Shown here piece by piece: positions 3,001-64,000 of a stretch of DNA of 64,000 nt (position 1 is its first letter; each line of letters starts with the position of its first letter). Both the position numbers and the translations under genes were made by a program. The stretch is from the IMG/VR virus record IMGVR_UViG_3300042945_001831, positions 17,458-81,457 of that record; one strand, written 5' to 3'. The notes beneath the pieces were generated by a model. That model searched no databases. It saw only the letters and a program-made list of their open reading frames with translations, and was not told where the DNA came from. Source of the stretch: a virus.

Positions 3001-6000
3001 GTCGAATTTCCATTTGATATAGGAGATAAAATTTTTGTTGAAAACGTTTTAATAACTGATTCATCGGATGGTTATAATTCGAGTGATTATGATTATAAGT
3101 ATTTTACAGTTACTGAAATCAATACAATTTCTGGTTCGGAATATGTTAGATATTCAATTTCTGGTCTTGGTAATACTGGTGGATTATTCGATTCAACAAA
3201 AACTTTTGGTAGGGTCATAAAAGTAGATGATTTATGTTCATTTAATGTAGAATTTGAAAAAATTAATTTTCTAGAAGGCGAAAAGATAACTCAAATTAAT
3301 AATAATACAACCGCATATGTTTCCAAAAATGGTTGGGATTCAGAAGCACAAACTTTAAAAGTTATTAATATCGATGGAAAATTTGAGGAAAACAATCAAA
3401 TAAAAGGGTCTATAGGAAATTATAAATCAAGTATTGACTCTACATATTCATTTGATTTTGATTTAAATGTCAATTCAACTGTCAAAAAAGATAAAGATTG
3501 GAATACAGATAAAGGAAAATTAAATTTTGACAATCAAAGAATTCAAGATAGTGATTATTATCAAAGATTTTCATATTCTATAAAAGGAGAAGTTGAATAT
3601 GATGTGTGGAAAGAACCAGTTAACAGTTTAACTCATACCTCTGGATTTAAAAACTTTTCTAATTTAGAAATACTAAATGGAATTGGAAAAACATCTTCTG
3701 TGAAATCAACTGATTCGCAAATTGATTTAAATGTTGAAATATCAAGTTCATCTTCAGTAAATGATAGATTGTACTATGATCTTGCTTCTGAAGATACCAG
3801 CAATCAATCTTTGTCAAATATAATTAAATTTGATTCCAAAATTATTACAGACTACAATGAATCAAGAACAAATAAAGTTTTAGAAATTGATGATATTAGT
3901 TCACAATTTACGGGAATAACAACTACTATTGGTGGTCAAATTGTTGGTCTGACTTCATTTACTTTGTATAATAATGGAAATACACTATTATACAAACAAT
4001 TCAATTCTTCTGGAATAATAACATCTTCGTCATTGATAACAATTCCTGATCATGAATTTAATACTGGCGAAATATTGAAGTATTCTTCAAATGGAGGAAC
4101 ACCAATTGGAATTGTAACGACAACAATAGTTGGTGTTGGGACAACAACTATATTGCCATCTAATGTATATGCTATCAAAATATCCAAAGATACGATTAAA
4201 CTGGCAGTAGGATCAACTCAAGCATCTTCTGGAATAGCAATAACATTTACTTCTTCCGGCATTGGAACACAACACAGTCTTTCAGTTGAATCAAATTTGG
4301 CCTCAAGTAGATGTTTAATTACTATTGATAATATAATTCAAAGTCCATTATCTAAAAAAAATATATCAGTAGGATTGTCTACTCAAGTTGGATTGACCAC
4401 AACAACAATTTATTTGAATGATATTTCAAAGATTCAAGGAAAATCATTATTAAAAATAGAAAATGAAATTATTAAAGTCAATTTAGTTGGTGTCGGATCA
4501 ACCAATTCTCTCAATGTTATTAGAAGTTATATGGGATCTGTTGCATCCGCACATACTGTTGGTGCAGCAGTTACTGTACTGTCTGGTGATTATACTATAA
4601 ATGACGGTAAAATTTATTTTTCTGATGCTCCTTATGGTCCAACAGGAATTGGATCATTAACGTCAAAATCATCTTTTTCTGGAAGAGTATTTTATCGTTT
4701 AAATTATGGTACAAATTACATAATTGATGATATTTCAGAATCCTTTGATAGTATTCAAAACAAATTTAATTTAACAACAAACGGAACAACTTTATCTGGA
4801 ATACAAACCAGTTTTGGAATTGTTTTGGTCAATAATATTTTCCAAAGACCATTTTACGGGGATGTTGGATCTATTTTGGAGTCAGATTACCAAATTGTTG
4901 GTACTGGACAAACAATTAATTTTACTGGATCTGATTATAGAGATTTACCAAGAGGTGGAGTAATTAATGAATTTGATATAACAAACGGGAGTGGATATCA
5001 ATCACCATATAGGGCATCTGCGTATGTAACTGTTTCTGCTGGCGGAACAATTCAATCAATTGGATTATCAACTGGAGGATCTGGTTATACTGCCACACCT
5101 AGAGTTTCTATTGCAGATACACTTGGAGTTGGAATTGGGGCATCAATTATTTCATCAATAACAAATGGAATTGTGACTTCATTTACAATAATAAATCCAG
5201 GAAGTGGATATACATCTTCCAGCCCACCTACAGTTACTATAGATGAACCATATCCATACAAAAATCTATCATTAATTGGTGGTAATGGCAATGGAGCAAA
5301 AATGAATGTAGTAGTTGGTACGGGAGGAAGTATAATTTCATTTGATCTACAGAATCGTGGTTATAGATACAATGTAGGTGATGTGTTAACTCTTTCTGGA
5401 ATACCATTTAGAACTGGAATTGGAACTTCTGCATTTAAAGTTACAGTAAAGAATAGATATCAAAGTAAATTCTCTGGTTGGACTTTTGGTCAATTATTAG
5501 AACTTGATGATTTTAGCAATTTATTCAATGGATTTAGAAAGTCATTTTTATTAACAAGAACTATAGTCACTAAAGAATATTATAGTATAAATGCACAAAA
5601 AGATTCTGGAATTATTTTGAAAAATAATTTACTTATTTTCTTAAATGATGTATTACAAAAACCAGAAATAGATTACATTTTTAACGGTGGAACTAGACTT
5701 ACATTCCAAGAAGCACCAAAATCTGGAAGTAAATTAAAAATTTATTTTTATGTTGGGTCAACTGAAGATTATTTAATTATTAATGTAAATCAGTCAATAA
5801 AACCAGGAGATAGATTGAGATTACAAAAACAAAATAACGTTCCATCTCAAGACGAAAGAATCATTTATGAATTAATTGCATCAGATAGCGTAGAAACACA
5901 AACTTATGGTGGCATAGGAATAGTCACATCTTCCACATTCTTGAGACCAGTAGTTTGGTCAAAACAGTCTTCCGATATTATTATTGATGGAATTAAAATA

Positions 6001-52847: not shown

Positions 52848-54038
52848 ATGAAAAGTTTTTCCCAATTTATTAAAGAAGCAGTAGAAACACTTGCATCTAC
52901 TGAAGCAAAGAATCGTGGTCTTAAGGGAGATGGTCACGGAGATTGGTATGATAAACAGGGCAATCTTGTAGCAAAAACTGTAGGTGGAAAGTTAAAATAT
53001 TTTGGTCAAGGTGGTGCTGGAACTCAACAACAACAAGCACCACCACAACAACAAGCAGCATCACAACAGCAGAAGGCAGCACCACAACAAGCAACGCAGC
53101 AACAAGAAGCAGAACCAGAACAAACTAATGGTGTTGCAATTGTAATTGGAAGATTTAATCCTCCATCTAAAAATCACGGAGCATTATTAAAAGCAGGATT
53201 TTCTCAAGCAAAAAGAAGAGGATTTGAGTATCGTATCTATCCAAGTCGGATTCAGGACGATAATACAAATCCATTAAATCCAAAATTAAAGATTTCTTAT
53301 ATGAAATCAATGTTTCCAGATTATGCTGATTATATTGTAGATAGTCAAGATTCAAAAACTATTTTTGATGTATTGGGATCTTTGTATGAAGATGGATATA
53401 CTGATGTCGTGATCGTTGCTGGACAGGATAGACTTGGTGAATTTCAAAGTCTTGTTCATAAGGGTGATGGGCAATCGTATCAATTCAATAATATTGAAGT
53501 TGTTACATCTGGAGTAAAAGATCCTGATAGTGAAGTAGAAACTGCTGGCTCCTCTGCTTTGATGAGAGCTGCTGCAGCAATTGAAGATTTTTCTAGATTT
53601 TCTACTGGACTTCCACCAACAATGAAAAAGGGAGAACAAAAAGAATTGTTTAATACTATTCGTAGATCTATGAATGTCCAAGAAGATACTGAAATATGGA
53701 GAATTGCACCAGAATTGGATTATGAAGGATTGAGGTGGAATTATAAGAATAAAGGTCTTTATGAAGTTGGTAATTTAATTGAAAATTTAAATAGTGGATT
53801 GATTGGTGAAGTAATTCGTCGTGGAACAAATTATTTGATTTGTGTTACCGAAGATGGGATAATGTTTAAAAATTGGTTGAAAGATGTTCGTGAAGTATAT
53901 GAAATTGGAACTGATGAATATAGAGCACATTTTCAAAAAGGAACTCCAGGACAAGACGTTGAATCATATACCAATGTGAGAATTAAACCTACAGTGCCAA
54001 AAAAATCTATAAATATCAATAGAAAAAGAAGTATCTAG
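52848..54038 (+). CDS. Nucleotidyltransferase-domain protein with capsid targeting sequence
   Basis: 396 residues. The first ten residues MKSFSQFIKE followed by Ala closely copy the T4 capsid targeting sequence MKTYQEFIAE/A, cut by gp21 after Glu10. This predicts packaging inside the head and delivery with DNA. Then come a short domain (GHGDWYDKQGNLVAKTVGGK), a Gln/Ala/Pro-rich linker (about 58-92) and a cytidylyltransferase/NMN adenylyltransferase-like domain. That domain has VIGRFNPPSKNHGALL (101-115), VVIVAGQDRLGEF and AGSSALMRAAA (ISSTxxR-like). The first His of the HxGH motif is replaced by Ser107, while His110 is kept. A C-terminal beta domain (about 280-365) follows. Substrate unknown; NAD or nucleotide metabolism is possible. 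Confidence 0.75.
   Translation: MKSFSQFIKEAVETLASTEAKNRGLKGDGHGDWYDKQGNLVAKTVGGKLKYFGQGGAGTQQQQAPPQQQAASQQQKAAPQQATQQQEAEPEQTNGVAIVIGRFNPPSKNHGALLKAGFSQAKRRGFEYRIYPSRIQDDNTNPLNPKLKISYMKSMFPDYADYIVDSQDSKTIFDVLGSLYEDGYTDVVIVAGQDRLGEFQSLVHKGDGQSYQFNNIEVVTSGVKDPDSEVETAGSSALMRAAAAIEDFSRFSTGLPPTMKKGEQKELFNTIRRSMNVQEDTEIWRIAPELDYEGLRWNYKNKGLYEVGNLIENLNSGLIGEVIRRGTNYLICVTEDGIMFKNWLKDVREVYEIGTDEYRAHFQKGTPGQDVESYTNVRIKPTVPKKSININRKRSI
54008..54015 (+). promoter_or_regulatory. T4-type late promoter inside the end of the previous gene
   Basis: Exact TATAAATA 28 bases upstream of the start at 54044. Its position is right for a late promoter even though it lies in coding sequence. Confidence 0.55.
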
Positions 54039-56306: not shown

Positions 56307-56873
56307 ATGATTTATTACACTTACGCATATTTGCGGGTAGATAGAACACCTTATTACATAGGAAAAGGAAAAGGTAATAGGGCATATAGAAGAAGATATA
56401 AAGGTGAAATAAAATCATCAAAAGATAAATCAAGAATAATCTTCCTCAAACAAAATCTAACTGAAGAAGAAGCATTTAGACACGAAAAGTATATGATTTC
56501 TGTCTTTGGTAGAAAAGATTTAGGAACTGGTATTCTTCATAATAGAACTGATGGTGGTGAAGGGTGTTCTGGAGCAAAAAGAAGTGAAGAAACAAAATTA
56601 AAAATGAGAACTCCTAAAAAAACAACAATAAATATGAAAAAACCAAAAAGTGAGGAGCATAAGAAAAAAATAGGATTGCATAGAAAAGGAAAAAAACACA
56701 CGGAAGAAGCAAGAAAAAAAATGAGTGATGCTCAGGTTAGGAGAATTATCACTGATGAATTTAGAGAAAAAATTCAAAAAAGTAGAATGGGAAGAAAACA
56801 TTCCGAAGAAACAAAACAAAAAATGAGAGAAAAAGCATTATTAAGAGAAGAACTAAAACGGAACAATAAATAA
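56307..56873 (+). CDS. Free-standing GIY-YIG homing endonuclease with NUMOD3 motifs
   Basis: 188 residues from the ATG at 56307, chosen because it follows the late promoter and begins the domain directly. The GIY-YIG domain has YTYAYLRVDRTPYYIGKGKG (about residues 4-23), then NRAYRRRYKGE and an EEEAFRHEKYMISVFGRKDL block with the catalytic Glu region and GGEGCSGAKRSEET. The C-terminal DNA-binding part contains three NUMOD3-type repeats (SEETKLKM, SEEHKKKIGLHRKGKKHTEE, GRKHSEETKQKM). It resembles the T4 Seg endonucleases. It sits between fibre-like genes, and a fragment resembling the gp17 N-terminus lies downstream at 58643. Confidence 0.88.
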   Translation: MIYYTYAYLRVDRTPYYIGKGKGNRAYRRRYKGEIKSSKDKSRIIFLKQNLTEEEAFRHEKYMISVFGRKDLGTGILHNRTDGGEGCSGAKRSEETKLKMRTPKKTTINMKKPKSEEHKKKIGLHRKGKKHTEEARKKMSDAQVRRIITDEFREKIQKSRMGRKHSEETKQKMREKALLREELKRNNK

Positions 56874-61234: not shown

Positions 61235-62236
61235 ATGAGTTATATTGATTCCAAATATATCGGGTTGGTTTCTTCCCGACTGGATAAGTTCGCCAAGAAA
61301 AAAGAAGGTCTTTATAACTTTAGATGTCCTTATTGTGGCGATAGTCAAAAGACAAAGAGCAAGGCAAGGGGGTATATTTATCAATTAAAGAACGATCATA
61401 ATTTCAAATGTCATAATTGTGGGACTTCCAGAACACTTACAAATTTTTTAAAAGATATGGATACTGTTCTTTATGATCAGTATGTGATGGAAAGATATAG
61501 AGAGGGAACTACCGGAAAAAGATCTCAAACAAAGAATCCAGAATTTAATTTTGAGAAACCAAATTTTTCAAAAAAGTCATTTAACCTTCCTACTATCGCA
61601 GAACTAAATAAAGAACACTTCGCAAGAAAATATTTAGAAGATAGAAAAATACCCAATAACTATCTGTGTGAATTGTATTTCTGTGAAAAGTTTAAAGAAT
61701 GGACGAATACTCAAAAACATACCTTTGATAAAATAGAAAAAGATGAACCACGAATCATTATTCCTTTAATCAATAAAGGAGAAATATTTGGATTTCAAGG
61801 TCGCAGTTTAAATAAAAAATCAAAGGTAAAATACATCACAATTATTCTTAATGATGCACATCCAAAAATTTATAATTTGGATAAACCAGATTATGATAAA
61901 ATTGTTTATGTTGTTGAAGGGCCAATTGATAGTATGTTTTTAGATAATTCAATTGCTATGGTTGGTGCGGATATTGATAAAATGTTTTTTTTATCTAACT
62001 TTGAAATAGAATTTGTGATGGTTTATGATAATGAAAAACGAAATAAACAAATTGTTGATAGGATGGAAAAAGCAATAGAAATGCGACTTCCAATCGTCAT
62101 TTGGCCAAATGACTTGAAAGAAAAAGATATCAATGATATGATCCTTTCAGGAATTGATGCCCAAAAAATCATCAAGGAAAATACTTATATGGGACTAGAA
62201 GCAAAAGCAAAACTTATTGGATGGAAACGAGTATGA
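61235..62236 (+). CDS. 61: DNA primase gp61
   Basis: Makes RNA primers with helicase gp41. 333 residues (T4 342), start at the ATG at 61235; a GTG one codon earlier is less likely. An N-terminal zinc-binding domain with CPYCGD (Cys31, Cys34) and CHNCG (Cys59, Cys62), then EPRIIIPLINKGEIFGFQGR, VKYITIILNDAHPKIYNLDK and the TOPRIM part YVVEGPIDSMFLDNSIAMVG, followed by VYDNEKRNKQ and KEKDINDMIL. These align with T4 gp61 (VLEGPIDSLFIENGIAITGG). The stop overlaps nrdA (ATGA). Confidence 0.95.
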   Translation: MSYIDSKYIGLVSSRLDKFAKKKEGLYNFRCPYCGDSQKTKSKARGYIYQLKNDHNFKCHNCGTSRTLTNFLKDMDTVLYDQYVMERYREGTTGKRSQTKNPEFNFEKPNFSKKSFNLPTIAELNKEHFARKYLEDRKIPNNYLCELYFCEKFKEWTNTQKHTFDKIEKDEPRIIIPLINKGEIFGFQGRSLNKKSKVKYITIILNDAHPKIYNLDKPDYDKIVYVVEGPIDSMFLDNSIAMVGADIDKMFFLSNFEIEFVMVYDNEKRNKQIVDRMEKAIEMRLPIVIWPNDLKEKDINDMILSGIDAQKIIKENTYMGLEAKAKLIGWKRV

Positions 62237-63918
62237 GCAACGGTACAAAGGTAATTAAAAGAAGTGGTGATAATGAACCTCTTGATCTGAATAAACTTCA
62301 CTTGATGGTTGAAGAATCATGTAGGGATCTTTCCGGCGTTTCTGCATCACAGGTTGAAATGCAATCCGGTATTCAATTTTATGATGGAATTACCACAGCA
62401 GAAATTCAAGAGATTTTGATTCGCTCTGCTTCTGATTTGATTGATTTGGATAATCCAAATTATCAATTTGTTGCAGCAAGGCTACTTTTGTTTTCTATAA
62501 GAAAATCTTTGTATGGAAGAGTTCAAGATCATCCTATTTTTATAAACCACATTAAAAATTGTGTTAATGTTGGAGTATATGATCCAGAAATTTTAACCAA
62601 TTATACAGAAGAAGAAATTGATAAACTTGGTAATTATATTAAACATAGTAGAGATTATCTTTTTACCTATGCTGGTCTTCGTCAAGTAGTTGATAAGTAT
62701 CTTGTTCAAGATCGCAGTAGTGGAAAAGTATATGAAACTCCTCAGTTCATGTACATGATGATTGCTGCTACTATTTTTGCTAGATATCCAAAAGAAACTA
62801 GAATTTCTTATATTAAAAGATACTACGACGCAATCTCAAAGCACAAAATTAATATTCCTACTCCGATTATGGCAGGAGTTAGAACACCACTTAGACAATT
62901 TGCGTCTTGTGTTCTCATTGATGTTGATGATACTCTCGATAGCATCTTTAGTTCTGATATGTCTATCGGCAGATATGTTGCACAAAGGGCGGGAATTGGT
63001 ATCAATTCGGGTCGAATCCGTGGCATCAACAGTAAAATCAGAGGCGGTGAAGTTGTCCACACAGGTGTTATTCCTTTCCTTAAAAAGTTTGAATCAACTG
63101 TACGTTGTTGTACTCAAAATGGTATTCGTGGCGGATCAGCAACTGTACACTTCCCAATTTGGCACCAAGAAATAGAGGATATTATCGTATTAAAAAATAA
63201 TAAAGGAACCGAAGATAACCGTGTTCGTAAGTTAGACTACAGTATCCAAATCAGCAAAATTTTCTATGAACGATTCATTCAAAACGGAGAAATCACACTC
63301 TTCTCTCCACACGACGTTCCTGGTCTTTATGATGCTTTTGGCACTGATCGATTTGACGACCTTTATGTGGGTTATGAACGAGATGGATCTATTCCAAGAA
63401 AAACTATTGGCGCTCAAGAACTCTTTCTAAATCTCCTGAAAGAACGTGCTGAAACTGGTCGTATTTACATTATGAATATCGACCATTGCAATTCTCACTC
63501 TTCCTTTATGGATAAGGTTGAGATGAGTAACCTTTGTGTTGCTGGTGATACTCAAATTAAAATCAAGTATCCAGAATCTGTTGGAGACCAATATGGTGTT
63601 TGGTATTGGAATGTTCTTGAAAAAGAAATTCAAATAGAAGACCTAGAAGATTATATTATTATGAGGCAGTGTGAAATGTATGACTCAAATTCCCCTCAGA
63701 TTGAAGTTCTTTCTTATAATACAGAAACTAATCAACAAGAATGGGCACAAATTACTAATTTTGCCGAAACATCACCAAAAGCAAAGGTTATGAAAATTAC
63801 TGATGAAGAAAGTGGTAAGAGTATTGTAGTGACACCAGAGCACAAAGTATTCACAAAAAATCGTGGATATGTAATGGCAAAAGACCTAACCGAAACTGAT
63901 GAATTGGTAATCAACTAA
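62233..63918 (+). CDS. nrdA: Ribonucleotide reductase large subunit NrdA, N-terminal half fused to split-intein N-half
   Basis: Class I ribonucleotide reductase large subunit, incomplete by design. Start at the ATG at 62233 (ATGA with gp61). Residues 1-434 are the N-extein: an ATP-cone (about 4-90; KVIKRSGDNEPLDLNKLHLM), RQFASCVLIDVDDTLDSIF (Cys226, equal to E. coli Cys225), and QRAGIGINSGRIRGINSKIR. It ends at SNL just before the catalytic N-L-C-x-E motif. Residues 435-561 are an intein N-half beginning CVAGDTQIKI and ending ETDELVIN, then a true stop. The C-terminal reductase half is not in the window. Activity would need trans-splicing with a C-half encoded elsewhere. Confidence 0.92.
   Translation: MSNGTKVIKRSGDNEPLDLNKLHLMVEESCRDLSGVSASQVEMQSGIQFYDGITTAEIQEILIRSASDLIDLDNPNYQFVAARLLLFSIRKSLYGRVQDHPIFINHIKNCVNVGVYDPEILTNYTEEEIDKLGNYIKHSRDYLFTYAGLRQVVDKYLVQDRSSGKVYETPQFMYMMIAATIFARYPKETRISYIKRYYDAISKHKINIPTPIMAGVRTPLRQFASCVLIDVDDTLDSIFSSDMSIGRYVAQRAGIGINSGRIRGINSKIRGGEVVHTGVIPFLKKFESTVRCCTQNGIRGGSATVHFPIWHQEIEDIIVLKNNKGTEDNRVRKLDYSIQISKIFYERFIQNGEITLFSPHDVPGLYDAFGTDRFDDLYVGYERDGSIPRKTIGAQELFLNLLKERAETGRIYIMNIDHCNSHSSFMDKVEMSNLCVAGDTQIKIKYPESVGDQYGVWYWNVLEKEIQIEDLEDYIIMRQCEMYDSNSPQIEVLSYNTETNQQEWAQITNFAETSPKAKVMKITDEESGKSIVVTPEHKVFTKNRGYVMAKDLTETDELVIN
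63535..63915 (+). other. Split intein N-terminal domain (IntN) within nrdA
   Basis: 127 codons. Block A CVAGDTQIKI starts with the nucleophilic Cys. A middle section has IEVLSYNTETNQQEWAQI. Block B is KITDEESGKSIVVTPEHKVF with the catalytic TxxH (Thr-Pro-Glu-His), then TKNRGYVMAKDLTETDELV. The frame ends right after this block, where known NrdA/NrdJ-type split inteins are cut. No endonuclease domain or blocks F/G follow. Confidence 0.9.
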
Positions 63919-63922
63919 TATG

Positions 63923-63976
63923 ATAGGAAGTGTAATTTCCATATCTTATAAATAGTTATGAGATTACACTTCCTAT
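63923..63976 (+). promoter_or_regulatory. Inverted repeat enclosing a late promoter before a probable homing endonuclease
   Basis: Perfect 14-bp arms ATAGGAAGTGTAAT (63923-63936) and ATTACACTTCCTAT (63963-63976). The 26-base loop carries TATAAATA (63947-63954). The right arm ends two bases before the ATG at 63978. Read-through RNA would fold and mask the start; late RNA, starting near 63960, would lack the left arm. Confidence 0.8.
63947..63954 (+). promoter_or_regulatory. T4-type late promoter inside the hairpin
   Basis: Exact TATAAATA, 23 bases upstream of the ATG at 63978, in the loop of the inverted repeat. Confidence 0.75.
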
Positions 63977-63977
63977 A

Positions 63978-64000
63978 ATGAAAACATATATTGTTTATAA
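63978..64000 (+). CDS. Start of a gene cut by the window end, probably a homing endonuclease
   Basis: Only seven codons are visible: MKTYIVY. This is a usual opening of GIY-YIG endonucleases, in which the first strand contains the GIY tripeptide equivalent (I-V-Y). The position in the gap of a fractured nrdA, behind a hairpin-controlled late promoter, is where free-standing homing endonucleases are known in split-intein loci. The identity cannot be proven from seven residues. Confidence 0.4.

Follow-up and report, generated by a model that had tools for sequence, protein, structure and literature searches.

A switch combining a hairpin with a late promoter has been described for the phage endonuclease genes I-TevI, I-TevII, I-TevIII and segB and for mobE of Aeromonas phage Aeh1, with a consensus ribosome-binding site (RBS) buried in the hairpin (PMC2988022). 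In the case of I-TevI, the GIY-YIG endonuclease of the T4 td intron, the late promoter is placed such that late RNA lacks one arm of the hairpin, and an operator resembling the homing site (15/20 identity) lies over this promoter and mediates autorepression (PMC2988022). The Aeh1 mobE gene splits nrdA, again with a late promoter and an inhibitory hairpin (PMC2988022, citing Gibb and Edgell 2007 and 2009). A sequence-only reading of the DNA studied here had named I-TevI as its precedent, and these descriptions bear this out. To our knowledge, the Aeh1 mobE locus has no intein, and the two NrdA parts associate without splicing. Loci of another kind were reportedly described in 2009 by Dassa et al.: fractured genes from metagenomes, nrdA among them, in which an endonuclease said to belong to a new, Vsr-like family lies between the N half (IntN) and the C half (IntC) of a split intein. 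We know of no hairpin/late-promoter switch for fractured genes of this type. Both the switch logic (T4 introns, Aeh1 mobE) and fractured split-intein genes were known beforehand; their combination, which we describe here, appears to be new, and in the part of the literature that was covered we found no report joining split-intein fractured genes with an I-TevI-type switch.

The cyanophage locus under study resembles I-TevI in encoding a GIY-YIG endonuclease, in placing the late promoter so that late RNA would lack one arm, and in having over this promoter an operator-like sequence that resembles the homing site (16/16 in the best case here). It differs in that a split intein takes the place of the group I intron, that both arms are inverted, junction-like copies, and that the stem holds no Shine-Dalgarno sequence (SD). 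The I-TevI-type switch buries an SD about 8 nt before the AUG; no buried SD is found in the cyanophages, whose element would operate in the I-TevI manner while falling, on this feature, outside the type in its strict sense. With Aeh1 mobE it shares an endonuclease gene splitting nrdA, a late promoter and a putatively inhibitory hairpin, whereas MobE is an HNH endonuclease whose RBS is sequestered. With the fractured genes of Dassa et al. it shares the order IntN - endonuclease - IntC, the endonuclease here being of the GIY-YIG family. Based on the results presented below, we propose, with a probability of about 0.74, that the inverted repeat acts as a stage-dependent switch of the homing endonuclease gene lying between the two halves of the split-intein nrdA.

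The DNA analysed (hereafter the window) is a stretch of 64,000 nucleotides from IMG/VR virus record IMGVR_UViG_3300042945_001831; all features lie on the + strand unless otherwise stated. The ORF at 62221-63918 is an nrdA gene (class Ia ribonucleotide reductase large subunit) interrupted by the N half of an intein. Up to the junction with the intein, its N-extein (62221..63534; Pfam PF03477, PF00317, PF02867) shares ~79% DNA identity with nrdA of cyanophages, and IntN follows at 63535..63918, from the Cys codon at 63535-63537 to the TAA at 63916-63918, with a weak PF14890 match just below the cut-off. Relatives with a contiguous intein (e.g. L006, L026) continue through IntC and NrdA-C. In the window, IntN is followed by the start of the GIY-YIG homing endonuclease gene (63978..64000), of which only 7 codons (MKTYIVY) are present, position 64000 being the end of the 81,457-bp record; the endonuclease encoded here could therefore be intact or not. 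In relatives, the full-length endonuclease has about 223-234 aa, with a GIY-YIG domain (PF01541) at E = 6.9e-13 in L003 and 6e-12 in L080. The order IntN, endonuclease, IntC was read on separate ORFs in L003, L004, L008 and others, in agreement with the split-intein setting that the sequence-only reading had assumed. In the cassette loci that were read fully, the IntC ATG overlaps the endonuclease stop codon and is served by an SD (AGGAG) within the 3' end of the endonuclease gene. As IntC has its own SD, NrdA-C should be translatable without translation of the endonuclease. Elsewhere in the window, a cytidyltransferase-like ORF (52848-54035) has a short match at residues 291-351 to phrog_4808, annotated as ribonucleotide reductase alpha subunit.

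Between IntN and the endonuclease gene, a repeat search found two 14-nt arms, ATAGGAAGTGTAAT (left, 63923-63936) and ATTACACTTCCTAT (right, 63963-63976), which are perfectly complementary with a spacing of 26 nt and lengthen to 20 nt at 90% (63920-63939 / 63960-63979). A single base (63977) separates the right arm from the ATG at 63978-63980, and the loop contains TATAAATA (63947-63954), a late promoter of the T4 type (NATAAATA). Perfect arms, a promoter motif in the loop and a nearby ATG were what the sequence-only reading had claimed, and all three are confirmed. The predicted RNA fold has an energy of -27.3 kcal/mol (z = -5.2), and 0/200 shuffles were equally stable. NATAAATA occurs 26 times on the window's + strand, and of these sites only this one is surrounded by a long inverted repeat, the next-best repeat measuring 8 bp, and 20,000 random window positions gave one repeat of at least 14 bp, possibly the same hairpin. 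By T4 late-promoter geometry, transcription from the loop is predicted to start at 63960, the 6th base past the motif, so that the late leader would measure 18 nt and lack the left arm, an element present only in read-through RNA. The same geometry is kept in the relatives. The reading had also claimed that the hairpin masks the start of the endonuclease gene. The stem does cover the start region, but there is no SD there to mask: none is found at the window locus in the right arm or between the right arm and the ATG, and a tetramer test showed no SD-like tetramer 4-16 nt upstream of this ATG. Since 43/58 window ORFs have no SD-like tetramer, a start without an SD is nothing out of the ordinary in this phage.

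In the proposed switch, transcription running on from nrdA, presumably early in infection, would yield RNA in which the two arms pair, forming a stem of 14-20 bp that ends one base before the endonuclease AUG. Rather than burying an RBS, this stem would keep ribosomes off the SD-less start region, and NrdA would still be made and spliced by way of the strong SD of IntC. Late in infection, TATAAATA in the loop would start an RNA near 63960, past the left arm; the start region of this RNA would be open, and the endonuclease would be made. Finally, the endonuclease would probably bind the inverted arm copies and repress its own late promoter. By our computation, the start region of the endonuclease gene (-16 to +6) would cost 14.6 +/- 3.3 kcal/mol to open in read-through RNA vs 1.9 +/- 0.6 kcal/mol in late RNA; the value for the other window genes is 5.6 +/- 3.1 kcal/mol. 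The endonuclease would be translated from the late and not from the read-through RNA. Ribosomes terminating at the IntN stop, a few bases from the stem, may partly melt it.

The conservation of this arrangement was assessed in relatives obtained by searching IMG/VR with the IntN protein alone, from which 80 loci were kept. Of these, 67 are split and 13 have a contiguous intein and no cassette; the complete cassette of hairpin, promoter and endonuclease gene is present in 66/67 split relatives. The sole split locus without endonuclease is L007, where positions 4370-4450 contain the left arm only, directly followed by the SD and ATG of IntC, an arrangement that looks like a deletion of the endonuclease gene. 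We aligned 32 distinct hairpins, some of which came from a scan requiring ATAAATA; neither the 66 loci of the IntN search nor the hairpin of Klebsiella phage KP13-7 (see below) was selected by this motif. ATAAATA is invariant in 32/32 of these hairpins, and any of T, C, G and A can precede it, in line with NATAAATA. In the same alignment, 95.9% of the cells of the 17-bp stem are paired, and 3 stem pairs show two-sided changes, compared with 0.5 in shuffles. When changes were placed on the endonuclease tree, we counted 4 compensated double changes (in L080, in L114 and twice in KP13-7), 10 changes to G-U, 6 to A-C and 4 to other mismatches. Covariation of the arms had been named by the sequence-only reading as a check on a T4-style switch, and the idea gains support from these compensated changes, from the invariant motif and from the layout of Yersinia phage TG1 described below. 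The alignment thus provides good evidence that the inverted repeat is maintained, and weak evidence that the RNA strand, and not a DNA palindrome, is what selection acts on; the asymmetry between G-U and A-C changes was rejected as proof of RNA-level selection, as 10 vs 6 events on the endonuclease tree is not significant.

Two other ideas were considered for these loci and rejected. A conserved 6-codon mini-ORF over the endonuclease start (ATG 63958 ... TAATG) has lost its ATG in L047, L057, L060 and L066 and its reading frame in L058. For a portable cassette inserted at other sites, pattern scans returned the nrdA intein site only, where the context was read, and the other matches looked like chance. 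As a separate observation, in L021 (about 3130-3530), in L022-L025 and in L054 (from 4675), the C-extein is interrupted soon after the contiguous intein by another ORF (MENKIAFVYEWNNLKTGMKYTGSHFG in L021), which is preceded by TATAAATA and marks a second nrdA break site.

Outside the cyanophages, a homologous hairpin with AATAAATA in the loop was found in the Klebsiella jumbo phage KP13-7 (OP617745.1, L222 2441-2520). There, the nrdA IntN is followed by CATAGGTAGTGTGATTTC-TAATAAATAACAT-GAAATCACACTACC, the gene for a 36% identical GIY-YIG endonuclease and IntC. The arms are altered relative to those of the cyanophages, yet they remain perfectly complementary through compensated changes; compared by eye, they match the phage's own nrdA junction at about 9/16. 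The stem lies ~17 nt upstream of the ATG, and from 5.7 kcal/mol in read-through RNA the predicted cost of opening drops only to 2.0 kcal/mol in late RNA. Past IntC, KP13-7 has more ORFs, annotated as hypothetical, before the annotated nrdA_2.

A cultured T-even phage, Yersinia phage TG1 (KP202158.1, L225 2740-2870), also has a split nrdA intein. Its order is IntN, ATGATGCTCCTT-ATAAATAATTAA-AAGGAGCATCAT-A-ATG (flanking letters omitted), endonuclease gene, IntC. As in the cyanophages, the endonuclease gene lies between the intein halves, TATAAATA occupies the same place in the loop, and the ATG sits just past the stem. Unlike in the cyanophages, the endonuclease is of the HNH type (phrog_655), the hairpin has no sequence in common with the cyanophage hairpin, the right arm buries an SD (AAGGAG), as in the I-TevI-type switch, and the arms show no similarity to the phage's own nrdA junction. 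From these sequences, the TG1 and cyanophage hairpins look like a convergent use of the same switch. A search of IMG/VR for relatives of the TG1 and KP13-7 endonucleases returned none except TG1 itself, and a quick look at Campylobacter phages with a split nrdA showed no such hairpin. TG1 and KP13-7 are isolated phages, so the switch can be tested in them.

The arms also resemble the nrdA sequence at the intein junction. GAGATTACACTTCCTA (63960-63975), which overlaps the predicted late start, is a copy of the nrdA sequence 3' of the intein insertion site, namely the codons Glu-Ile-Thr-Leu-Pro directly after it, and is identical at 16/16 positions to nrdA of the intein-less Synechococcus phage DSL-LC03. 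A second, inverted junction-like copy, GAAATTACACTTCCTA, is read on the - strand as the reverse complement of the left arm (63924-63939) and is identical to C-extein bases in L011. The best or tied match of GAGATTACACTTCCTA outside the hairpin falls at the nrdA junction in 34/44 distinct cassette loci, and none of 2000 shuffled arms matched the junction nearly as well. By sequence similarity, a homing-site-like sequence therefore overlaps the late promoter. Since the arms copy the sequence beside the homing site, the endonuclease probably binds them and shuts its own late promoter; both arms would then probably be operators and the repeat an autorepressor site as well. An element whose arms copy the target site would tie its self-control to target recognition. 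The possibility that the arms follow the junction of their own genome was rejected (mean mismatches 3.75 vs 3.82).

The same observations feed the alternative that survives best, although we regard it as unlikely: the element would act at the DNA level only, as inverted endonuclease operators flanking a late promoter, with the RNA hairpin a by-product. The match of both arms to nrdA sequence 3' of the insertion site is in line with this, as is the repression by I-TevI of its own late promoter via a homing-site-like operator (PMC2988022), and two sites for one protein would co-vary too. Because an operator role explains the co-variation of the arms as well, our confidence in the RNA switch does not rise above about 0.75. 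However, the arms of TG1, in the same layout, are unlike its own nrdA junction but bury an SD, the cyanophage arms do not vary in step with their own genome's junction, and protein binding alone does not explain why a near-perfect stem should end one base before an ATG.

Translational coupling, in which the hairpin would draw the IntN stop near the endonuclease AUG so that re-initiation offsets the missing SD, is less probable still. The IntN stop lies about -1 to +4 nt from the stem base in the loci inspected, and the endonuclease gene has no SD to rely on; yet coupling leaves unexplained the invariant promoter in the loop, which would make RNA without IntN, and it sits poorly with the good SD hidden by the TG1 stem and with the KP13-7 AUG ~17 nt past the stem. 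A transcription terminator or 3'-end stabiliser of the nrdA N-half RNA, which the position of the stem directly after a stop codon might suggest, is very improbable, as the stem is AT-rich with a 26-nt loop and no U-run instead of the GC-rich stem and T run of an intrinsic terminator, a terminator search found no such site, there is no Rfam match of note, and both the promoter and the nearness of the ATG would go unexplained.

Returning to the stage switch, we advance a broader version of it tentatively, giving it slightly less than an even chance: that one 58-bp element is at once an attenuator in read-through RNA, a late promoter and an inverted operator pair copied from the homing site, and that unrelated nucleases residing in one and the same split-intein gene (GIY-YIG in cyanophages/KP13-7, HNH in TG1) acquired switches of this kind independently. 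The switch would carry a strategy familiar from T4 introns over to split inteins, in phages that are abundant and mostly uncultured. The apparent convergence of unrelated nucleases on one layout suggests that staying silent early could be generally required of a selfish gene housed in an essential split gene.

The motif in the hairpin loop also occurs across the rest of the window. NATAAATA is the published cyanophage late motif (PMC2984593), and its placement in the window fits this description. The word count of TATAAATA is at chance (11 vs 10.1). In the intergenic DNA, which makes up ~4.2 kb of the 64 kb, a script counted about 16 NATAAATA sites on the + strand vs 0 on the - strand. TATAAATA lies 16-38 nt upstream of the baseplate wedge, tail-fibre assembly, tail sheath and head scaffold genes, and the portal gene is preceded by CATAAATA. 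A further ORF (56307-56870), which matches the homing-endonuclease family phrog_314 to which the cassette endonuclease also belongs, starts 26 nt after a copy of TATAAATA with no long inverted repeat there. Nine NATAAATA sites were mapped 16-38 nt before start codons (6709, 15813, 24499, 27560, 29262, 30726, 54008, 56273 and 59010); several of them precede structural genes, and together they form a usable late-promoter map of this phage.
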